A DNA stretch of 64,000 nucleotides from Telopea speciosissima (lineage: Eukaryota; Streptophyta; Magnoliopsida; Proteales; Proteaceae): NCBI RefSeq assembly GCF_018873765.1, contig NC_057925.1, positions 12,225,568 through 12,289,567 of the forward strand, in the 5' to 3' direction. Position numbers and translations under genes: made by a program. Position 1 is the stretch's first letter, and every line of letters begins with the position of its first letter. The notes under the pieces are model-generated. The model did not search any database. It was not told the origin of the DNA and saw only the letters and a list, made by a program, of their open reading frames with translations. Positions 41,266-59,200 of the stretch are shown in pieces.

Positions 41266-42182
41266 TATCCCCCATCTTATTTAGCATCTCATAATGCATT
41301 ATCGACCCATAATGCATTCAAATGCAATCTTAAACGTCAATGTGTTATTAGTAATGTGTTTCTATAAGAAACATTTGTCTTGGAAAGTTGGACCAAATGT
41401 TTATCAGCTTGGTTTTTAAAGACCTCGGTCGGGGTCATGTACCCATTCGGATATGTTCAACAATTCTTTCTAAAAAATAGGAGGCGATGGCTGCAACAGA
41501 TGATACGAGACATTTTTTCTTGCATGGTGTGTGAATGCTAGAGCTTGAGTAACAGACCAATGGAAATAGTAGATAAGTACTTGGTTCTTAAACCTAAGCA
41601 TCCTACTTCCCATTTCCTTTTTGAGAAACAACAATAGAGGAAAGCATGCCAATCCCTTTATGGTTCTTCGTGACATAAAGCACATATGTGTTTTAATTGT
41701 AGAAAGAGACACATTGAAGGTATAGTTTTTTTTTTTTTTCAAAAAGAGATACTATTTATTAACTAGAGAAGAGAAATATCAAATAAGTACATGGGTCAAG
41801 GCCAAATCATTAGCCAGTTGAACAAAACCTCTATGTTGTTTAGTAATACATATATCAGGGAATGAAGTCAAACGATTTTTAATGTCCCACAAAACAGTAA
41901 AAATTTTCCATGGCCATTGCATTGTGTTATGAGTGAGCCATTAGATCAAATCACTGCAGTCAGTCTAGACGTTGAGTGTGATATCATGTTCTTTTCAAAG
42001 TTTCTGAAGGCCAATTAGTAGTCCTTTTGTTTCTGTTGAGTTGACCATGCACGATCAAAACTAACACAAGCACATACCAGCTTGAAAGAGCTTATTACTC
42101 TTCTAGCCATAGAGCTTTCCTTTCATCCTTTGCACAAGTTTTTTTAGGCTTGACATTCTTTATCTAGAGATGAATAAATTTA

Positions 42183-42299
42183 GAGTAAATTACTCCCCCC
42201 TCCCCTCGATTATGCTCTAATGACAAACCCCTCCCCTGGGTATTGAATAATGACTCTCCCCTCCCCTGTATTAACAAGATTCTATCAACCGTACCCATT
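42183..42299 (+). repeat. Pack-MULE left terminal inverted repeat
   Basis: The repeat carries three C-rich blocks (CTCCCCCCTCCCCTC, ACCCCTCCCCTGGG, CTCCCCTCCCCTG), so the opposite strand has spaced runs of four or more G that could form quadruplex structure. The complement is at 44182-44298. Confidence 0.92.
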
Positions 42300-42434
42300 C
42301 CGTTAAAAATGACTGTTAAGTGATGACATCACCCTAAAAATATTCATTTAAACCCTAAAATACCCTTATGTTTGTGATATTCCAATTATACCCCTAACCA
42401 TATCAAAACCCTAAAAACCTCATTTCTCCAGTTT

Positions 42435-42790
42435 GACTAACAGTCACCATCACCACCGCCACCACCACTTCCGTAGCCACGGTCACCACCACCATTTCCT
42501 TAGCCACGGTCACTACCATGGCTGTATCCACCACCGCCGCCCTCACGACGTCCATAACCACTGCCGCCTTCACCTCTATAGCCTCCGCCACCACCGCTAC
42601 AATAACCACCTCCACCACCACCACCACCGCCAGCACCCCTGGTCTGGGCTTGATTGACGGTAATATTCCTACCATCAAGGTCCTATCCGTTCATCCCTTC
42701 AATAGTATCCCTCATCGATTGCTCATCGCGGAAAGTAACGAAGCCAAACCCTCTGATCTCCCAGTCTCACGATTGCTGATGATCGTTTCC
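42435..42790 (-). pseudogene. Captured glycine-rich RNA-binding protein fragment
   Basis: The minus strand reads NRETGRS, then (after a 1-base deletion) RGFGFVTFRDEQSMRDTIEG, where GFGFVTF is the RNP1 motif of an RRM. Then DLDGRNITVNQAQ is followed by a Gly/Tyr-rich tail (GGGGGGGGGY, YGSGGGGGDG). Stops occur at MNG* and DRG*. This is the GRP7/GRP8-type plant RNA-binding protein layout, second half of the RRM plus glycine-rich domain. RRM and tail are contiguous. It is broken and antisense to the other two captures. Confidence 0.85.
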
Positions 42791-42921
42791 GGTGATCAAT
42801 GAGAGAACAGAGAGATTGGTAGTACAGGAAAATTCAGACCTAGCTGAAATTTTGGATATTGAAGCGAGATCTTGAAGAAAGAATAGCGACAGTAGATGTG
42901 GAATGTGATTCTGGAGCAAGG

Positions 42922-43590
42922 ATGAGGCCTTTGAGCAGTTTAGGAATTGGTCTAATTTTGGTGTTCGGTTGTCTGCTCTTAGCTCTTGTTGCAAAGCTCT
43001 ACTATTTGTTATGGTGGAAAAAGAGGGTCACCAACAGAGAGATTGAAGATGATTACAACAGTCCTACAAGAGAGCTATTTTATACGTTTTGCTGGAAAAA
43101 ATCAAACCACCGTTGTCGAGTTCCACAACACCGTTGTCGAGTTCCACAACCTTGAACCCTCAGGAACTCTGCACCTCTGTGAGAATTACAAGAGCCCATG
43201 GTCATAAAACAGAGAATTAACTTATCCTTCATTTTGAGTCACATAAGGATTTGTTACTGAAACCCTTTGAAGATGATGCCATGGATTTGGAACTCTTGAT
43301 GCGGCAGAATCTCTGTGGACCTCCACGATTCCTCTTCACCATTAAAGAAGATTTGAAGGAAGATTTGGAGTCCGATGATGGGAAATTCAGAAGTGGAAAA
43401 AGCCGAAAAGGGTCAAGAAGTAGGAGCTTGAGTGATATCCTCCCCAGTGTGGAGACCCCATTTTTAACTCCTATGCCTTCTCCACCATTTACTCCACCAC
43501 TGACTCCTATAGACTCGTATAACCACCATGGATTGACTGAAAGCCCTCTCTTTTGGTTCCTTTCTATGGAAAATACTTCATTTTGAATTG
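42922..43590 (+). pseudogene. Captured plant membrane-protein fragment
   Basis: The first part encodes MRPLSSLGIGLILVFGCLLL and ALVAKLYYLLWWKKR (one membrane span), then EDDYNSPTRELFYTFCWKK. A 22-bp unit (CACCGTTGTCGAGTTCCACAA) is duplicated and shifts the frame. NPQELCTSVRITRAHGH then precedes a stop. The frame resumes with SHKDLLLKPFEDDAMDLELL, GPPRFLFTIKEDLKEDLESD, SRKGSRSRSLSDILPSVETP and FLTPMPSPPFTPPLTPIDSY. I recognise an uncharacterised plant family with one N-terminal membrane span and this Pro/Ser-rich tail. Function unknown; the copy is disrupted. Confidence 0.7.
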
Positions 43591-43639
43591 ATTTACAGGG
43601 AACACACATACAAGTGAAGCTATGTGGGGCACAAGACGA

Positions 43640-43960
43640 CTAAGATAGTGAAGGAGGCAACCACATACATTAAAAATTGCTTAGGCGTAGGAGCAGATGA
43701 TGCATTCATATTCGTGGCTCGCACCACCGCAACAATCAAACGTCTTCAAGAGGTTATGGGAATCACAGTGATTTCAACCATGAGAGAAAGGATACTCAAG
43801 AGCCTAAAGAGAGAAGAGAGATGGGTGGTCTTTGTTGGGCCATATGACCACCACTCCAACCTCCTCTCATGGCGTAACGACTTAGCAGAGGTGATTGAGA
43901 TCGGTCTTGACGATGATGAATTGGTAGACATACGAGCTCTAAGTCTCCAACTTGAGTTTT
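43640..43960 (+). pseudogene. Captured class-V aminotransferase / cysteine-desulfurase-like fragment
   Basis: The translation has GADDAFIFVARTTATIKRLQ, then EVMGITVISTMRERILKSLK, then RWVVFVGPYDHHSNLLSWRN and DLAEVIEIGLDDDELVDIRA. The (E/D)HHSN-LSWR block is characteristic of class-V PLP enzymes (NifS/IscS fold). The expected Gly-rich SGTT segment is degenerate here (ARTT). The catalytic Lys region is absent. The open frame continues to 44130 into a Lys-run (AAG repeat at about 44036-44060) and terminal-repeat-proximal sequence, so a 168-codon chimeric ORF exists but is probably not a real protein. Confidence 0.7.
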
Positions 43961-44181
43961 ATAAGGGTTCCAATCTCTGCCGAGCTTTTTTCACACCTAA
44001 ACATGGAAACTGGTACAGCTTTCGGAGATGCATTAGGAAGAAGAAGAAGAAGAAGAAGAGTGGGGTGGCGGTGGTGCAGAGTGGTGGGGGCGGGTGGGGT
44101 TACAGGAGGAAGAAGAAAGAAGTGAGGTAGAGATGGGGGTATTATTGTCTTTTTATTTGCATTTTTAACACCGTCAGTCAA

Positions 44182-44298
44182 AATGGATACGGTTGATAGA
44201 ATCTTGTTAATACAGGGGAGGGGAGAGTCATTATTCAATACCCAGGGGAGGGGCTTGTCATTAGAGCATAATCGAGGGGAGGGGGGAGTAATTTAGTC
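44182..44298 (-). repeat. Pack-MULE right terminal inverted repeat
   Basis: It is the inverted copy of 42183-42299. The plus strand carries CAGGGGAGGGGAGAG, CCAGGGGAGGGGC and CGAGGGGAGGGGGGAG. Confidence 0.92.
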
Positions 44299-44307
44299 AT
44301 AAATTTA

Positions 44308-46796: not shown

Positions 46797-47050
46797 GAAA
46801 TGCTTGTCATTTGCCGATTTTTTAACACAAAAAAAGTGAAACATGTTTAAAACATGAATACTTGTCATTTGTCGATTTTTTAACACAAAAGAAGTGAAAC
46901 GTGTTTAAAACATGAATGCTTGTCGTTTACCTGTTTTTTACACAAAAAAAGATGAAACGTGTTAAAATATGAATGCTTGTCATTTGCCGGGTTTTTTCCC
47001 TCGGGCAAAACATGTTTAAAACGGTAAAAAACGAAATCGCGTTTAAAACG
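46797..47050. repeat. 58-bp tandem repeats just upstream of NUP93
   Basis: Four units start at about 46801, 46859, 46918 and 46974 with (T/A)GCTTGTC(A/G)TTT. Each contains ACACAAAA and GAAAC(A/G)TGTTTAAAA. The CATGTTTAAAACATG segment is an imperfect palindrome recurring in each unit. The array ends about 210 bp before the NUP93 start codon, so it lies in or next to the promoter. Confidence 0.85.
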
Positions 47051-47260
47051 AACACTGTTCGTTTTAGCAAACAATGCTCAACTGCGATATGCGGCTCACC
47101 CAAACAGTTCTCCGCGCTGGTTGAACTCTGCAAAGTACGGCTCTACAGGCCAAAACCGGTCGGGAAATTTGGTTTTGCTTGCTCTCTTACCGCTTTCCCT
47201 CCATTCAAATTAGGGCTTCTAAACGCCTGTCACTCTCTTTGGAGCTTTGTAGTTGCAGTA

Positions 47261-50200
47261 ATGGCGACTGAACCAGACCTGAGTAGCTGGACCGATCTCC
47301 TCCACTCATCTACGAAGCTTCTCGAGCAAGCTGCTCCATCTGCTCAATTCCCTACTCTACAGGTTCGTCTTATTGTTTCATGTTAGGCGACTCTATGGCT
47401 TTTGCATTATCGTTTATTTTCGTTTCTCTGTTTTGTAGATATTTGACTTACACATGAACTGTTGCAGAGAAACTTGGATCAATTGGAAGCTTTGTCGAAG
47501 AAGCTCAAGGCTAAAACCCTGAGAACTGAAGCTCCTACACAATCCATTGCCGCCACGAGGTAATGCTTCATGCAGTCAAAACAAAAGGCTATTGGCCCCT
47601 TCGGTCGATCATACAGATTGGTTCCACGGTGATAAATTTTACTTTACGTTTAGTTATTATGATCATGGAGAACGTGGTTGGCCGGGAGTAATTCTGAATT
47701 GATCATTCCATCAATCTGAGAGTGTTGATAGTATAGGGAATGTTGCCGTTATGTCGGTTGAGTTTCCACCTATTTTTTGTACGGATTAGGTTACTGGCGC
47801 GCGAAGGAATCAATGCTGAGCAGCTTGCACGAGATCTCAAGTCTTTTGAGTTGAAGGTGAGGTCACTTTGTCAGTGTTATTTATCAACTGACTGCCTTAA
47901 TTGGATTCATGTCTTTATGTTCTTTAACATTCGTTAATCTTGTACCTCACTCACTCACTGAACTAGTAATAGTTTAAGCTAGACATTATGTGCAATGTCC
48001 TAACGATGGAGGCCCTCCAGATAATGTGTTTCTAAAATTGAATTTTACTTACAATTGGTACAATAATTCTCTTGCAGTAACTCAAGACCTTAAATTGTGC
48101 CATCACTTCCCCTTGTCATGAGTAGGTCATGGAAACATCTGTGGGAGCTTTTTTGTTTTGGTTCTCTACTTTAAAAGTTTATCCCACTCAGTTGGGGCTT
48201 GGGGCCCAAGGGAGGTTCCATCAATGCTCTGTTTACAAATATTAACTTCTGCCTCGGAAAAATCATACTAATGAATACTTCGAAAAATTATATGGGATCC
48301 ATATCAAGATTTCGAACTTATTGCAGGAGTACAAATATTCAATATGTGCTGCTTTCCATCATAACACAAGAGAAATGGGCGGACAAAAGTCACAAAATTA
48401 GTGTTATGGATCAAGCCACTAAAAGTAAAAGGAGCAACCACTCATATCTCTGTTACTACTAGAAAAAATCTATTTTTATAGGACACGATCCCAGCAATGA
48501 AATATAGAATGGGAATTTGGACTAATGGTCTGTTGCATAATACTCAAATTGTTTAATTGACTCCCCTAATGATGAGTGATTGATGGGGAGTGGCTTGTCA
48601 CCTATTGCCCTCAATTTGAAGACAAATACTTTGGATTTTTCATTCCGGTGATAGCTACAGAAGTCAATCTTCTTCGTAAGTTTTTAATTGAAAATATTTG
48701 ATTAATGTTCCATACTTCCATATCATATTGGATTATTGGTACCAACCAAACCAAATAGCAGCTTCATCAAGTCCAGCAAAAACGCAGTTCGGGTGCATGG
48801 TGTAACACAAAACCGAGGACTCCTAGTTACCCCCTAGACCATCTCTCAAGGAGGAGATAGGTGTCTACACCCCCTCAATCACCATCTGTAATAGTACTGC
48901 AGATGCTGCTACAACAAAAAAAGGGCGTACCCAGTGCATGAGGCTTCCGCCACTGCGGGGTCTGGGGAGGGTCATAATGTACGCAGCCTTCCCCCTGCTT
49001 TTGCAGAGAGGCTGTTTTCAGACTTGAACCCGTGACCACTTGTTTACAATGGAGCAACCTTACCGTTGCACCAAGGCCCACCCTCTAACTGATGCTGCTA
49101 CAACATATGGGCGAAATTTGAACCCATTGAGGTTAAACATAGTGGTCTTGCAGTTTTTTAGATTGACTAATTCACACTTTTGATATTCTTCAACAATATA
49201 ACTTCTTTTGAAAATTAAAATGTAAAATTTTATTGCTATGAGGGGGAAAATGAGGTAAAAGAAATCATAATTAGGGTGTGTTTGTTTGGGGTATCTATGG
49301 AGCAAATCAGCTGTTTTGAACAAAAAAATTTGAAAAGGATGTCTCCTAAACACCTTTGGGAGATGGGCCAAAAATAACCAATGCGTTTCTCTCTCCCTAA
49401 GAGTCCTCCATATCTCCAACTCTGTTGTGAGCTCAGTAAAAATTAGGAGAATTAAAAAAACTAGCCTAACCACATGGTTCTTCCAAGAAAAAAGGTAAAA
49501 GAAGATTAACCTGTTTTGCTAAAACATAAAAAGGGGTACGAGTACCCAGTGCACAAGGCTCCTGCAACTGCAGGGTCTGGGGAGGGTCATAATGTATGCA
49601 GCCTTACCCCTGCTTTCACAGAGAGGCTGTTTCTAGACTCGAACCCGTGACCACTTGGTCCCAATGGAGCAACCATAGTTATCAGGGTGGCAAGGTGACC
49701 AAGGTGATGGAGAGGGTCAATCAAGGCGATACCAACAAAATGGACCGAGGCGTCCAAGGCGCCGGCCTAGGCGACACCTCGATAACTGTGCTGTGACCCA
49801 TGATCATTTGTTTTGCTAATACATATGATCATGAAGTTTTATGCTGGGGAAAACTTGAGGGTCTGGTAATTAGGAGCGTATATTAATTTTCTTCTGATTG
49901 GTAAGAAATACATGGATTTGCATCATTTGATATTAGAGAGAGACATATAATATGATGCAATGTGAGTAGTGGGTTGGCATAGATTTCATTCGATCAACTT
50001 GAATATTTGAAATGCTTTTCAAGGTTTTGCTACTTGAGGAATAGTATGGTTTTCATGGTTTGTTACTTGAGGAATAATATAATTTTTCACTGCTTATATT
50101 CTGCATGGTCTGATTCTAAATCTGGTATAGTTTTGACCTCTGTGCACTAATTCGTTGCCATTGATATAATCTAATACATGCTTTTACTTGAGGAATAGTA

Positions 50201-53200
50201 GGGTTTTCATGGTTTGTTACTTGAGGAATAACATATTTTTTCACTGCTCATATTCTGCATGGTCTGATTCTAAATCTGGTATAGTTTTGACCTCTGTGCA
50301 CTAATTCGTTGCCATTGATATAATCTAATACATGCTTTAACTTGTGCTTCTTTCAAGTTCCCCTCCCCCAACACCCTTTTCATCTCTCTCCCCCTCATCA
50401 GACTATGTTATTGGATTTTGTCTTCTGTGGCAAGTGTTTTCTTGACTTATCTTCATTCTGTCTACTTTTTCTTGAAGACAACATTTGAGGATGTGTTCCC
50501 TGCTGAGGCAACAAGTGTCGAAGAATATCTGCAGCAGGTAGATTTACACCTATTTAACCAACGCCATTTAGTTGGGATAAGGCTGAGTTGTTGTTTTAGT
50601 TTTATACCTATTGTTGCTCAATGAAAAAATTTCAAGTTTTTGAGTTCTCATTTCCATTGAGATATTGAAGGTTTTTCTTACTTTGTTGTTCTGTCTAGTT
50701 ACATTGATCGCTGAAAATAAGGATGAACACCGGCAGAAGTTTCAAGCTTTACTCATTCTATATAGTAGTGAGCCTCGTGTTAGAAAAGAACCTTACCTGG
50801 AGCCATCTGCTAACAATGGCATCCTGAAGTGTCTAATGATTTAAAATCTAGGAGTTGGTTGACTTTAATGGTTAACAACTCAACATTGTTAAGAAATTGC
50901 AATTGTGGGTTGCTCCTCCACGGTTGCACTGAGAGAACTTTGAACTGTGGCAATATAATCTGGTTTTGGGATAACTCTTCCTAATTTAAGAAATCGAGCT
51001 GGAAGTGTGTAGTTTGAGCCATTTGTTATGCTGCATGTTAAATCTTGTTTTGTGCTTGGTGCCCATATTGTTTAGTTGAGTGGAGCGGGAGTTCTGAAAA
51101 ATGGAAGAAAAAAAATGCTGGACCGATGAATTTGGAAAAGTTCAAAGTTCTGGAGTTTTCTAGAAGGGTAGTTTATTGTGATGATCAGACAATATAAATT
51201 ATGTTCCGAGTAGGAATGTTAGTATCATCTATAAGATGTTTGGGGTAATGCTGAAACAGGATAAGGTGCCATTTGAGACAATAAACCCCACTTGAAAACT
51301 AAAAACCAATTTTTTCTATAGAGCTTCGACATATCAGTTGTCAGTGACAGGAGCAATGAAGGCTTTGCCTTTTTCTTGGACATTGATATTTGATTGAATA
51401 GTGCTAGAACACCAATATCAGAAATGATTTTTGATGGGGTTAACATATTTGTTTAGAGGTGTGACTTGGTTGGGTTAGCAAAGCAGCAAGATTCTCAGGG
51501 GTTCGGTATGTACCAAAGAATCTTTACTAACAAGATAGCTTGATCTCAGGTGAATCGGCCAATTCAGATTGGAATAGACCATGATCAATTTTGATTTCTA
51601 CCGATTTTGATATGATCGATTCACACCCAAAAACCCTAGAAATTCCTTGTTTTTGTTTCTAAGAACCAATTCTAGGGTTCTTGAAGACTCATGAGTCACG
51701 TGCTCCCGGCCTCCAGTTCTTCGCTCCTTTGGTAATGTCTTTCCCTCTTCTCCGGTAATCTATTGCCGGTAATTCTCGACCTCCGATGTTTCTCTCTCTC
51801 CAAACCCTTCTCCACCCTCTCCTTCCTCCTAGATCCACCCGCCACAAACCCCGTTCAACACAACACCTTCTCACTGGAAAGCACCCTTTGAGCCTGCCCC
51901 TCGTGCTTCTCGTGAAGGCCTCTCTCTTCGTTTTATTGCACCTTTCCATGATGGTGCCTCAAAATTTGCCCTTTGTCCTCCTGGGCTGCTCGATGATGAA
52001 GCAAAGCTTTGGAAGAGCTGCCTGGTAGGCCATTTCCCGGGCTCTAGACCCCCATTCCATATTTTGAAGTTATTTCTGTCAAAGAATGGCGGCCTCAAGG
52101 AAACCTTCAACCCACCCTTTTGGACAATGGTTTTTTCATCTTTAAATTCTCCGCTGAACTTGACAAGATTTGTGCCCTTGAAGGAGGTTCCTGGCAAGTG
52201 GGGAAGAACAAATATTTCTTCGTCAATGGAATCGTCAACTTCAGCTGAACAGCGTGGATTTATCTATCATCCTTTTATGGATATCTCTCCCTGGCTTTCC
52301 TCTTCACTTCTGGTGCTCCGAAGGACTTAGCACATTGGGCTCTGTCGTGGGCACTCCTCTCTTCTCTGATGCTAGAACCATGAGAAAGTATAGACTAGCC
52401 TATGCCAGAATCTGTGTCGAAGTATCGGCAGAGGATGCTCTTCCCTCCTTCATCAAGGTTAATGATGGGAATGATTTCTCCTTCGATCAAGATGTGCACT
52501 ACGACTGGAAGCCTCCACACTGCCTCCATTGCAAAACTTTTAGTCATGACTCTAGCTTCTGTGCGCCTAAGGAAGTCTCGGTTCCTCCTGATGATCACCG
52601 AAATGAAGCAACAATTGGTCTCACCTCTGTTGATGAGATACAACAACATGAACCAAATCAGGTGCAACATCTACCTTCTTGAGGAAGAACCAGGGCTAGA
52701 CCTCACCAGAATAAGCAGCGGCTGAAGGAAACGCCGGCATCCAAGACTCCTTTTCATGGGACCGATGGTCTCAACCTTTCTTCAGATTTGCCCTCTGGGT
52801 AGAATCGAATTGTGATTCTGTCATCTGACATTGAAGTACTGCCAAACCCCCTGCTGCCTGCCCTAGACGATCGAGAAATCTTCCTTCAGAGATACCCTGA
52901 TGCGTCGCTCTCGCTCTGCTTCCCCAGCAGTTGACCTTGGAAAGGTGCTTTTGGAAAATCGACCTGCTTCTCTGAGGACTTCCTCCTCTTCAGCTTTGTT
53001 GTCTCCTTCGAAAAGGCAAGCTGCTCCTCCTCTTGATGATGCGACTCCAAATAGGGTGTCGAGTGCTTTCTTCCCTTTTGTTCCAGCTTCCCTGGTGGGA
53101 CCCATCCTTTCCCTTTCTCCCTCTTTGCCTGTGGACCATTCTCGAACCATTGTGTGAACCATTATCCCTGGTTCAACCACTTCTTCCCATCTTTCTATCA

Positions 53201-56200
53201 ATCGGACCTCTACCTCTGGGCTATCCACTAACCCAAACCCGATTGCCACTTCGCCTCTCACCCGAATCTTGTTTGGCTCCCTCTTCTTCTACCAACCATT
53301 ATGGCCTACGTTCCTTCCAAAGGTGCCATAGAAGCTCCTCTCAAGCTCGGAAACTCCTCCCCAACCCTTGGGCTTGATTGCACCCCCCTCCACTTCCCTA
53401 TGAACCAGGTTGTTATTTGGAACATCAGTGATGTAGTCCTTGGTAGGAGTAATCCCACTAGGAGCCAGGGTAATGGGGTCACACACAAGGGCTAGCCAAT
53501 TGGGTTAGGGTTTACTAATTTAGGGCAAAACTAGGGTTAGGGTTGGATTTTGAGAAAGGGGTTTATAGGGTATTAATGGGCAGGTCTAGGGGACTAAAAT
53601 GGAATAAAGAAGTTAGGGTTTGGATGAGTTTCGAAATTTTGCAATATTGGGCAGAATTGATTTTAGGGTTTTTTTTGGGTTTTATGGGAGATGAGGGGAA
53701 TTAGGGTTTGAGTGGTTTGATTGGACTGAAAGTAGGATCGAGTGTAGGGGGAAATGTGGGGGATGTATGCTGGAAGTTTGGGCCAGATTTGATGGTGGGA
53801 TGATGGCTGCTTAGAAACTGAGCTATGGTTCGAAGGTAGAAGTTGCAGGTTTAATGGAGGGGATGTAAAACTGGTTTTGAGATCTGATGGGGGAAAGGAT
53901 GGCTTAGGTCGGAGGATGAAGGAGAGAAGGATGTCAGGAATTGAGAGTAAACTTACTGATTTGAAGAACCAGCAAGGCAGCAGCTAGAAAGTTGAAGAAA
54001 CCTCCCGATCTTCACGATGCAAGGGGTCGTAGGAGTCCACCCACCCTGTACCACCTTGAGATCCACAAGGATGCAAACTCAGAGACCAATCGGCTATGGC
54101 TGCAGCAAGCTAAAAACAAAAATTATTTAATTGAACTGTGGGGGAGCCTCCCACGAATTGCTTTATTTATAATGGGGGCTGATCCATCAATCAGCCAATC
54201 AGTCCTATTCAGAGGAGTTGTAGTCCTAGCTCTGAATCCTAATTACAATATGATCAGATCTTATAATCTGATTTAAAAAAAAAAAACAAATCCTCCTTTA
54301 GAAATCGTGGAGGGGGAGAAATAAAACAGTAGCTAATAAAAAAGGTCAAATGACCATTATACCCTTAACTAAAGTACTGAAAAAAAACTACGTATGGAAG
54401 CTCCAACGAAAAATAAAAACAGAAACAAATCAACAGCCCTTTCAAGGCTTCTTATTCCTCTTCCTAGTGCTTGGACCTGCATCAATCAGGGGTCTCAACT
54501 CCCCTTCCAAACAGTCTGCTGTCTATTCTTTCATCAAGCTCCATCGTCCCAGTCTTTGCTTCCTCCTTGAGACTCATATCAAAGAAGCAAATGCCCCAAA
54601 AACTTCAAGCTCCATTGCCCCTGGTTGGTCTCTGCAGACCAAATATAGTCACCATCCCAATGGCCGAATATGGGTCATTTGAGATCCCTGTAAAATCAAA
54701 GTCTCCATCCTCTCTTCCTCTTCCCAGTTTCTTCATCTTTGCATTTCTGACCTTTTGGGTCTATCCAGCTCTTTGTTCACTGTCATTTATGCTTCTAATA
54801 TCCCTGCTGAAAGGCTCTCTTTATGGAATGATCTTCGATCCTGCTCTGGGCAGATTGACTCTCTCCCCTGAGGGTTGGGAGGTGATTTTAATGTGGTTCA
54901 CTATGATCACGAGAAGCAAGGAGGGGATCATTTAGACAGGGATTCAGTGGAAGCTTTTAACTCTTGTATTGAGGATATTGGCACCAGTGACTTGAGATGG
55001 TCTGGCCCAAAGTTCTCTTGGAATAACAAAAGAGCTGGTACTGCCCGTATTGCCTGCAAGCTTGATAGAATCCTTGTGAACGAAGCTTGGCTCTCCACCT
55101 ATCCTTCCTCCCATGCCACTTTTCACAACCCTGGTATCTCTGACCATAGCCCTATCTCTTTGTTCATTCAACCTTACATATCCTTTGGCCCAAAGCCCTT
55201 TAAATACTTTGACATGTGGTCCTCTCACCCCTCTTTCCTTCCTACTGTTAAAGAAGCCTGGGATAAGCGAATCCAAGCTTTTTCTTCTCCACTTATAGCA
55301 GTTGCAAGGAAACTCAGAAATGTCAAAAGTGCTTTCAAGGATTGGAACTCTCTCCACTTTGGAAATATTTCCCAGCGTGTGCTTGATTGTAGGGACAAGC
55401 TTTCAGGTATTCAGAATCGGTTGCAGACTGACTCTCTAAATGTTCCTCTGGTGGAAGAAGAAAAAGAGGCTATTTCTGAGCTCTCAGTTCTTCTCTCTCA
55501 AGAGGAAAGCTTCAAAAGGCAAAAGTCCAGAATCAAGTGGCTGGATTTAGGGGACTCTAACACGGCCTATTTCCATCGATCCATGAAGTCTAGAATAAAC
55601 ATCAACTCTATTTTGCAGCTTACCACTTCTGATGGATCTCATGTTCATAGAGTCAAGGACATCAAAGACGTGGCTGCAAATTATTTCACGGAGCTATTCA
55701 ATGACTCTTCTAGGGAGGCTGGGCCAATCCCTGACCATCTTCTCAACAATTTCATTCCAAGTGAGTATCTCTCTTCTTTGCAGGTCATCCCTTCAGAAGA
55801 TGAAATTGTGGGAGCCATTCGATATCTTAAAACTAACAGGGCTCTTGGGCCAGATGGATTCAGTTTGGGTTTCTTTTTTGCTGCTTGGGACATTGTCAAG
55901 GAAGACCTTATTAAAGCTATCAAAAGTTTTTCCCTCAACCCTAGTCAAATTAAAGGAGTGAACCACACGTTTCTCTGCCTCATCCCCAAGAAGGAAGGTG
56001 CCTCGGCCATGACTGATTTCGGTCCTATAGCTCTTTGTAACTTGCTCTGCAAATTTATAGCTAAGATCATAGCATTAGGCTAAAGTCAATTGTGGACATT
56101 CTGGTTAGTGCAAATCAATCTGCTTTCATCCCTGGGAGAAGTATAGCAGACGACATTCTTCTTTGCGTCGAAGTAGTTAGAGGATTTGACGAGAAATCCC

Positions 56201-59200
56201 ACCCCCAACTGCTCTAATGAAGATTGACATCCACAGGGCTTTCGACTCTCTGACATGGGACTTCATTTGTAGGCTGCTAACCAAGATGGGCTTTCCTCCA
56301 GTGTTCACTCATTGGATTCATTAGTGCATATCGACGGCAAAATTTTCGGTCCTTGTCAATGGCAGCCCAGTGGGTTTCTTTGCTTCTTCAGTGGGTATTC
56401 GTCAGGGTTGCCTCTATCCCCTTACATTTTCACTCTGGCTATGGAAGTTCTTTCTAGAAACATCCAATCTTGCATTGATTGTCAGCTCATTGTCCCTATT
56501 CCCAAATGCAAAGCTCTCAGTTATCCCATTTGGCTTTTACGGACGACCTCATGATCTTCTCAAAGGCATCCAAAGAATACTTCGAATCCATTATGTTCTG
56601 TTTGCAGCACTTTGAAGATCTCTCAGGCCTGAGGATTAACCCTACGGAATCTCTCCTATTTCTTGCGGGGGTTTCTGAATTTGTGAAAGCTGCTTTGGAA
56701 ATATCGGGTTTCTCTCTTGGCCATTTTCCAGTTAAATACTTGGGGCTGCCTTTGATTCCGGCCAAGCTTACTGTGCATCACTGCTCTCCTATGTTGGATC
56801 TCATTAGGAAAAAACTACAGCTTTGGAAAGGCAAGCTGCTCTCATATGCAGGTCGGTTGGTTCTCATTAAGTCAATGCCTCAATCTTCTTACATCTACTG
56901 GACTGGTATATATGGTCTTCCATCCTCAACTATCAAGGCTCTAGAATCTCTTATGGCCTCCTTTCTTTGGAAAGGCGCTGAAACTTCTAGATTTCTCCAT
57001 CCCACCAGCTGGGCTTCTATGTGTCTCCCTAAGGAAGAGGGGGGGGGGGGTATAGGTTTTCGCCGCATTAAAGATGTGAACTCAGCAGGCATCATTAAGT
57101 TGATATGGAAGATTGCTTCTAAAGAAAGCAACATTTGGGTTGACTGGATCTACTTAGAAATTCTTCGGTCTGACTCTATTTGGATTGTCTCTTCCACTTC
57201 AGATGCTTCTTTGGTCTGGCACAAGATCCTCTCCCTTAGACAAACTGCTCTTGGAGCCATACACTCTAAGATTGGGGATAGTTCATCTACTGTTCTTTGG
57301 TTGGATCATTGGCACCCAAAGGGTATTCTCATTCACTCGGTTAATTCCAGAGCTATCTACAACTGTGGTTTAAGTAGACAATCGCTGGTTGCAGACATTA
57401 TCTCCAACGGAGACTGGGACCCATCGCCCTCTCTCCACCCAGTGCTCAATGAAGTTTGGAATGCTTTGCCCTCTATCCCTAGAAGATCTCTTGGATCCCT
57501 TCTACCTCTGGTTTGTTTAGATCTAAAGATGCTTGGAATCTTGTTTGGCTCAGAAATAATTTGGCTCCTTGGAGAAAGCTCGTCTGGTTCAAAGGCCACA
57601 TTCCCTGCCACAACTTTATTGTTTGGAATGTCTTCTCAAACAGTCCTCCCAATGCAGTCCTTCCTTCGTCTTTGTCAAATCCCAGTCTCCCCCATTTTGC
57701 TGCCTTTGCTGGAATGCAGTGGAAGATGCTGATCATCTCTTATTTGATTGTACGCTTTCCTTGGCTATCTAGAAGGGAATCCTTGACAAATGCTGGCCTC
57801 AAGGGAATGGTTATGGATAGAAATGACTTTCTCTGGCTCTTCGACTTGTGATACAGTTGGTAAACTGGCTTTTTGTGCTTCCATTAACCAGATTTGGATG
57901 GAGCGTAACATTAGGAAATGGACTTCCAACTCCAGGCCTCTTAGCCAGATTTGGGTCTCCATCTCTTTTGACATTAAAGCAAAGCTCTCAGCTGTTACTT
58001 CCCCCTGTATTGATTCCCCAAGGAACAGGCATGTTGTTGTCTCCTAGGATCTCCCCCTCTTCTATCTCCAGCCGATCACCTCCTCTGTTTGAGGTTGAGT
58101 TAGCTTGTGTATTTGTGTTTTTTCTCCCCCCCGCTTTTGGGTCTCTGTAGTTCTTTCTCTTTGGTAATGAATTTTTTATTCACCTAAAAAAATAAAAGAT
58201 AGTTTGATCTTCTGTTGGGATGCCATCCTGGCTAAAAGGAGCTTTCAGATTTGTCTGGAAAAAATTGAGACGACTCATTTTCTATGACGAATTTGAGTTT
58301 AAATTGTCAGTGGGTAGAAGAGAATGGATGAATTGAGCAGGCTCTTCTATTTGTGTCTCCCCACTGTGAGAATAGTGGCTTGAAGTGAATCTTCTCTTCA
58401 GAGGATGTTCTTTTCCCTTGAGTCTCTTGCATTCAAGTGTCTTTGTAGATAGGGATCTCTCTTTTCTTATGTTACTTATTTATGAAAAGGCCAATGCTGA
58501 TCTCCTTGAGAAGGATCCCCTTGACTTGTCATTTTGGTCTCTATCCTTCCTTATCGCCAAGTCTCTTTGCGCTGGTGAATTTATTGCCACCAATTCCAAT
58601 TGACCCCTGCTTGTCTTTTGATTCCATAGTCACCAGACCATAACAAGGAAGACGTGAACAAAATGAGCATTGTTAAGGGAACTGTAGTCTGGAGGAAGAA
58701 TTACATTTCATTTGGTGGAAGAATATATTGATAAAATCTGCTATGGTTAGACAATCTTGTTAAAATGCCTTGGTGATCCTATGCAATAGCCTGGCTGCTA
58801 AAAGAAAAAGATCTTGCCTATGCCCTTCTCTAATCACCTAGGTGCATTCTGATGCAGCATGCAAGGAATTCTAGCAGCATAAGTGTGGACAGAGAATAGA
58901 AACTGTTGCCCACAGCTGATGTGGCCTATACTACACATCCAAGTATGAAAGTAATCATGAATATTAGGTCTGCAATAGAAAAGGAAATGGGTCTGAGATA
59001 AGGGTTTAGTTTTAGGGTGTTGGACGGAGTTTAGGGAGATATAAGTCTATAACTGTGTTAGGTGGGAAAAGGCTCATCTGTGAAGAGTCCACCTCTTTGG
59101 AGTCTTTGCACTCAGGTCTGATCCTGAGTTTCTAAGAATCTTCATTCTCAAATATAGATTTCAGTATCAGAGCAAAATACTTGCTACTCCCGCTGATCCG

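Follow-up and report, generated by a model that had tools for sequence, protein, structure and literature searches.

How does a short transposon that carries no transposase come to hold pieces of three unrelated host genes, and by which route did each piece enter it? The question is raised by a stretch of 64,000 nucleotides, called the window below (C10:12225568-12289567), in the 823-Mb genome of the plant Telopea speciosissima; all element positions are counted within it. A preliminary description had proposed a young Pack-MULE which had itself captured the three genes. We find a multi-copy Pack-MULE family whose members have the same ends, the same three-gene filling and target site duplications of their own, and we consider it very likely that a fragment of a glycine-rich protein (GRP) gene came first, by way of an alternatively spliced RNA, that the other pieces were added later and that the composite spread in trans.

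The element occupies positions 42183-44298 on the forward strand, 2116 bp in total. Its terminal inverted repeats (TIRs), 117 bp each (42183-42299 and 44182-44298), align gap-free with 114/117 positions identical, and the 9-bp target site duplication ATAAATTTA stands on both sides (42174-42182 and 44299-44307; 9/9), as the preliminary description had stated for ends and duplication alike. On the forward strand of the window ATAAATTTA occurs at the two element flanks only, and an adjacent 9/9 match would arise by chance at about 1e-5, as calculated from the flank composition. A 20-mer of the TIR, with up to three mismatches allowed, has four matches in the window, every one within either TIR, and none in 100 shuffles. 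The long inverted ends, the flanking duplication and the lack of chance TIR matches in the shuffles establish the observation as real. The parts of the element are as follows:

42174..42182, no strand: left target site duplication ATAAATTTA, identical to the right one
42183..44298, + strand: whole Pack-MULE, with TIRs and target duplication
42183..42299, + strand: left TIR
42300..42394, + strand: left sub-terminal sequence; together with the left TIR, similar to the end of a same-ended element of 4642 bp
42392..42831, - strand: GRP fragment, with a 3' UTR piece, exon 2 (RRM part and Gly-rich tail) and 47-48 bp of retained intron, from Pfam, solved-structure and gene comparison
42784..42785, - strand: exact splice junction, where two GRP genes hold 129 and 126 bp (GTATGT...CAG)
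42829..43534, + strand: membrane-protein gene fragment, with upstream sequence and N-terminal part
43532..43551, - strand: trace of GRP exon 1, a 20-bp exact match on the GRP strand, between the membrane-protein and PLP fragments
~43553..43974, + strand: class-V PLP enzyme gene fragment, with an exon end, an intron remnant (~43569-43598) and the start of the next exon
43975..44130, + strand: tail with GAA run; its first 86 bases occur in element copies only
44131..44181, + strand: right sub-terminal sequence, from comparison of copies and elements
44182..44298, - strand: right TIR
44299..44307, no strand: right target site duplication ATAAATTTA, identical to the left one

The 9-bp duplication lies within the 9-11 bp expected of a MULE and the 117-bp TIR agrees with a published description of MULE TIRs as typically 100-500 bp long (PMC3310237). 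No transposase frame was seen in a six-frame translation inspected by eye, nor among four element peptides compared with Pfam, in agreement with what had been claimed. Host gene fragments are present, candidate donors lie elsewhere in the genome and copies carry duplications of their own. The window element belongs to a multi-copy family of non-autonomous Mutator-like elements (Pack-MULEs), and the identity first given to it is upheld by its ends, its duplication, its gene fragments and its relatives. Searches for Rfam matches in the window and for a TIR 19-mer in viral contigs returned none.

Querying the genome with the TIR gave 1005 candidates, of which 40 places were scored, 40/40 at 95-100% identity; exact matches to the 24-base tip of the TIR number 229 (125 on one strand, 104 on the other), and the reversed control has none. 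We fetched 20 stretches around TIR matches, together with further loci bearing the fragments. Ten full-length copies were obtained, the window's included, and all ten have the order TIR, GRP, membrane protein, PLP, tail, TIR. Pairwise identity is 93.9-99.5% among nine of them and 86.5-88.5% for C3_13, which has an additional insertion in its right part. An eleventh copy, at C10:51.30 Mb, is split by an insertion of about 10.9 kb whose terminal direct repeats (2.9 kb, 98.3% alike) resemble those of an LTR retrotransposon, and two copies, at C9:15.09 Mb (L038) and C1:30.45 Mb, look truncated. The sister copies that had been suspected therefore exist, and the shared order in 10/10 full-length copies speaks against capture of the three genes by this very element.

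Among the eleven copies with both ends (the ten full-length ones and the interrupted one), eight have a perfect 9-bp duplication; that of C10_27 is 8 bp long beside a shortened right end, that of C10_61 matches at 8/9 positions and that of C10_60 is poor. The duplications contain 7 G/C among 143 letters, counted in 16 of 23 copies, with the seven whose duplications are mismatched omitted. From the family majority, which was built with the compared copies included, the window copy differs at 5/2095 sites, its two nearest sisters (C6_58 and C10_27, 99.5% identical to it) at 6 each and the other seven at 42-226. Because it stands so near this majority, the window copy is young, among the youngest copies fetched. 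The recent movement claimed at the outset is thus retained and the evidence offered for it, the near-identity of the ends, is given up: two of the three TIR mismatches of the window copy are common to its sisters and so inherited, which makes end identity a poor clock, and the 99.5% sisters show youth better. Dating by the TIRs was discarded for this reason.

Three unrelated host gene fragments on two strands, of GRP, membrane protein and class-V PLP enzyme, had been named in the preliminary description. Their identities hold, GRP lying on the reverse strand and the other two on the forward strand, and their limits had to be adjusted slightly to 42392-42831, 42829-43534 and ~43553-43974, respectively. 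The search of the genome that it had suggested yielded candidate donors for 3/3 fragments as well as further same-ended elements. It had also set against capture the possibility that the segments lie collinear in an ancestral locus of related species, without the ends. Within the plant's own genome, the membrane-protein and PLP fragments are indeed joined at C9:15.09 Mb, yet they match the element at 96% and 98%, respectively, for which reason this locus is read as a truncated copy; the other places that hold both fragments in the own-genome searches are element copies.

The membrane-protein fragment is about 94% identical to C1:26684525-26685206, and the candidate donor there (C1:26.68 Mb) has an open frame of 346 aa. 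Further relatives lie at C6, C2 and C5, and the peptide has no Pfam and no NCBIfam match. In the PLP fragment, the intron remnant measures 30 bp, shorter than the introns of PLP genes; the next exon is entered at 43599 and broken off in mid-exon at ~43973-43975, where the genes continue. Since the remnant is kept, this fragment derives from DNA or from unspliced RNA. Its peptide falls short of the cut-off both in Pfam (E=0.064) and for NCBIfam SufS (E=0.0015), a search of solved structures (PDB) gave no meaningful relative, and in a bacterial genome scan 83 stretches fit the pattern and 0 were confirmed; 79 plasmid records match, and 9/10 of the matches listed are annotated aminotransferase class V-fold. 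In the plant itself, the search found six loci at 79-82%, and candidate donors lie at C7, C1 and C5, the best at about 86% in full alignment. The tail has no donor among the 12 places of its first 86 bases, all of which are element copies (a truncated one in one case). Over a whole fragment, the candidate donors reach about 94% at most; the genes truly copied may therefore be absent, or the captures may be old.

The GRP fragment is the one which bears on the route of entry. Its peptide matches RRM_1 in Pfam (E=2.9e-6), and its best solved relative is a glycine-rich RNA-binding protein (4c7q, E=3e-16). A candidate donor at C5:8.22 Mb is 89% identical overall and 93% within the RRM part; a second GRP gene, at C4:13.85 Mb, reaches 82%. 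The introns of these genes (C5/C4) are 296 and 295 bp long and contain an internal second 5' splice site, GTATGT. Splicing from this site is predicted to keep 167 and 169 bp of the intron and to remove 129 and 126 bp, and translation of the predicted isoform would stop at 69 aa, versus 159 and at least 181 aa. From the element these 126-129 bp are missing, with both limits of the gap falling precisely at GT...AG, and 47-48 bp of the retained intron part are joined to exon 2 at the predicted alternative junction. The preliminary description had missed this precise intron removal. In Telopea speciosissima the isoform is predicted from the gene sequence alone; in Arabidopsis, an alternative AtGRP7 isoform is described in which use of a cryptic 5' splice site leaves the first intron half in place and which has a premature stop (PMC3610657, PMC5663106). 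The GRP module is like it in these respects and unlike it in being a DNA copy within a transposon, its own isoform coming from prediction.

The splice join is present in 10/10 aligned full copies, some with base changes adjacent to it. A query of 107 bases across the junction gave 23 candidates, all scored, and 25 places; 13 of these run across the junction, namely 11 family copies and two older elements, L076 and L078. The two GRP genes (4 of the 25 rows) are split there by their intron. Four places (L086-L089) hold exon 1, both intron parts including the removed one and the start of exon 2. At L083 (C10:57.119 Mb) and L085 (C6:13.242 Mb) exon 1 is joined to exon 2, so that both copies are fully spliced. 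Of the sequence ahead of the junction, L084 has no more than a few bases left; L090 (C10:57.161 Mb) is decayed and has the retained intron beside exon 2, the removed part being absent. A plain donor, that is, an intact GRP gene lacking the removed intron part in its DNA, was sought and found at 0/8 remaining places, in the 0.55-0.85 kb fetched. With a longer query, the alternative junction, retained intron next to exon 2, was also met at L077 (C5:67.42 Mb). No TIR was seen in the 0.75-0.8 kb fetched at L083 and L085, in 3.7 kb at L077 or in 0.55 kb at L090.

The exactness of this join leads us to the view that the GRP module passed through RNA. The contrary reading, that the missing stretch is an ordinary deletion which matches the splice sites by accident, can point to the 1-base ambiguity at the junction and to indels, which are common among the copies. 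Against it, only one of 49,005 single-deletion placements in the C5 gene yields the product seen in the element (two with the 1-base ambiguity), a count which is confined to single deletions within the intron and close to it and gives each of them the same likelihood. The join recurs in every aligned full copy and in L076 and L078, and the stretch that is kept corresponds to that of the AtGRP7 isoform as described in the two reports cited above. We therefore regard an accidental deletion as very improbable. How the RNA-derived sequence reached the element is a finer question. We lean slightly towards capture as DNA from a pre-existing processed copy of the alternative transcript, so that the MULE itself never used RNA. 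Fully spliced GRP copies at C10:57.119 Mb and C6:13.242 Mb, and the alternative junction at L077 and the decayed L090 with no TIR in the fetched sequence, argue for such a source. Set against this, the C5 gene is at least as close to the element as any of these candidate retrocopies, L083 and L085 have about 300 bp in common ahead of the GRP part (273 identities, 16 mismatches) and may sit in another repeat, and L077 and L090 could be decayed elements. RNA-derived GRP copies exist where no element ends are seen, and the capture of such a copy is simpler than direct cDNA capture.

Direct capture from RNA or cDNA, at the repair of a break in the MULE, would agree with the exact splice junction, with 3-bp overlaps at two junctions and with the presence of RNA-derived and intron-bearing modules within one element. 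We hold it to be doubtful, as the element has no direct trace of reverse transcription and an RNA-derived go-between copy, for which L090 adds one such place, accounts for the same facts. The fuller scenario seems to us unlikely; in it, the transposon lineage would have acquired straight from RNA or cDNA the poison isoform through which a GRP gene restrains its own expression, and would have multiplied it before DNA-derived pieces were added. No A tract, as expected of the poly(A) of a retrocopy, was found where the GRP fragment ends (~42392, in the 3' UTR, against the parent terminal sequence); ending inside the 3' UTR without such a tract, the module would be a partial copy rather than a complete retrocopy.

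Elements with related ends suggest an order for the captures. Family B1 and C10_55 have the same ends with other interiors, and share with the window element the sub-terminal sequence and a GRP tail with a 3' UTR piece; B1 additionally has a piece of the retained GRP intron. In L076 and L078 the retained intron stands beside the GAA tract and the right end, and the insert is absent; in L076 it joins the GAA tract directly, and exon 1 was not seen. The single TIR fetched at each is 81-82% like the window element's. What C2_27 and C1_35 have in common with it is limited to the ends and a portion of the sub-terminal sequence. Among the elements fetched, the membrane-protein and PLP genes occur in the window element's family only. 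As GRP sequence is thus also found in same-ended, differently filled elements without the other two genes, capture was probably stepwise, GRP first and the other two later, inside it. The overlaps at the joins, AAA at 42829-42831 (GRP/membrane protein) and ATT at 43532-43534 (membrane protein/exon 1 trace), fit template-switching repair and, at two junctions only, are weak evidence for it.

The reading that we prefer, RNA passage of the GRP module followed by later insertions, can accordingly be set out as a conditional sequence of events. A MULE lineage would first have gained a GRP fragment made from alternatively spliced RNA, either as cDNA or via an RNA-derived copy already in the genome; the piece would have comprised the intron's first half, exon 2, a portion of the 3' UTR and perhaps exon 1, of which the 20-bp trace is left. 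Later, in the branch leading to the window family, the membrane-protein and intron-bearing PLP pieces would have been added within GRP, perhaps by template-switching repair, and transposase supplied in trans would have spread the composite. Possible relatives of its source are present. The 4642-bp element at C5:887577-892218 has a 9-bp duplication and ends of about 590 bp (95% alike); its outer 212 bp are 90.6% identical to the left end of the window element (192 identities, 20 mismatches over 42183-42394), and it contains a zinc-knuckle piece which shares 48% identity with the corresponding part of a MULE transposase (E=7e-6). At C1:2.94 Mb lies a FAR1/MULE transposase frame (Pfam MULE 5.5e-28, FAR1 3.4e-21), after which come six same-strand copies of the TIR tip. 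A genome-wide search for PF10551 gave 827 candidates, of which 150 places were scored.

The captured pieces are probably cargo and unlikely to be expressed or functional as genes. A working product is improbable because the GRP frame is broken by a stop and, in the window copy's subgroup, by a frameshift as well, and the start of the PLP part has a 1-bp deletion private to the window copy among ten. To the idea that the element is evolving into a chimeric gene we give next to no weight: its 168-aa frame (43624-44130, + strand) is open, and MULE TIR promoters are described as able to drive inserts (PMC3310237), yet the same lesions in the PLP and GRP parts weigh against it, and the tail of the frame is of low complexity.

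A piece that looks like spliced RNA hints at the way in which host genes are acquired by elements of this sort, and splice junctions within captured fragments offer a simple mark of an RNA step. The family provides a series, from GRP-bearing elements without the adjacent insert, through other fillings, to the three-gene form, so that the order and route of capture can be tested in relatives. If direct capture were true, Pack-MULEs would have RNA-templated repair as a second means of capture, and isoform sequence dispersed over the genome could interfere with the self-regulation of the host gene.

As a Pack-MULE family with serial capture, the family is of a known kind. In rice, 5-10% of MULE-derived putative genes are reported to draw on two or more parents (PMC4858842), and rice Pack-MULEs, multi-gene ones included, likewise have long TIRs, a 9-bp target site duplication, no transposase and amplified fragments from several loci (PMC4858842, PMC8903248). 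Unlike those, the window element has a GRP module that bears the precise splice junction of an alternative isoform. Spliced isoforms in Pack-MULEs were not found described in the literature searched, by title, and the statement is limited to that search. What appears to be new is that a DNA transposon bears the precise imprint of an alternative isoform of the NMD type. The Pack-TYPE fusion model, in which neighbouring elements are co-mobilised (PMC8903248, PMC13317346), similarly places newer cargo inside and older cargo near the ends; in the outline given there it moves neighbouring chromosomal DNA and, unlike the history proposed here, removes no intron. Maize Bs1 is comparable in holding three host genes per element, and is described as an LTR retroelement which captures RNA (PMC13317346), whereas the window element is a DNA transposon.

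The target duplications of this terminal inverted repeat (TIR) family consist almost entirely of A and T, with G or C at only 7 of 143 letters, as against a G+C content of 38.6% in the window; this composition was counted in 16 of the 23 copies carrying the TIR, the 7 with mismatched duplications being left out. By its A/T-rich target duplications, the family has a strong insertion preference.

Twelve elements (L011-L016, L019, L022, L023 and L025-L027) share the TIR of the Pack-MULE and differ from it in their interiors, which are of at least three kinds; these elements measure 1.76-2.43 kb, and the cargo recognised among them is the tail of the glycine-rich RNA-binding protein (GRP) gene. 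One family copy (L017/L018, C10:51304507-51317587) is interrupted by about 10.9 kb of inserted DNA, which has direct terminal repeats of 2.9 kb that are 98.3% alike. From this structure the insert is of the LTR type, and it could provide a date for that family copy.

GRP sequence also recurs elsewhere in the genome. In two stretches, L083 and L085, exon 1 is joined to exon 2, i.e., the copy is fully spliced, and the two have about 300 bp of upstream sequence in common; possibly they represent another repeat carrying an RNA-derived GRP copy. Four further copies (L086-L089) retain the intron, resemble one another and lose their exon 2 match at the same base (position 53), and they appear to be a further repeated GRP fragment.

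Within the window, a LINE-like stretch (52254-57851) contains a DUF4283 match above the cut-off, together with endonuclease and reverse transcriptase matches that both fall under the curated cut-offs. The reading frame at 46973-47386, about 2.7 kb downstream of the Pack-MULE end, presumably encodes the N-terminal part of a NUP93-like nuclear pore protein; a Pfam search of this frame returned no match.

Copies of the TIR tip are also found near MULE domains. Six of them (42-54 bp), all in the same orientation, form an array (571-2002 of L082, C1:2939600-2946600) located 3' of a FAR1/MULE transposase gene, and at C1:70.48 and C3:13.32 Mb a distance of approximately 2.4-2.5 kb separates exact tips from MULE domains.
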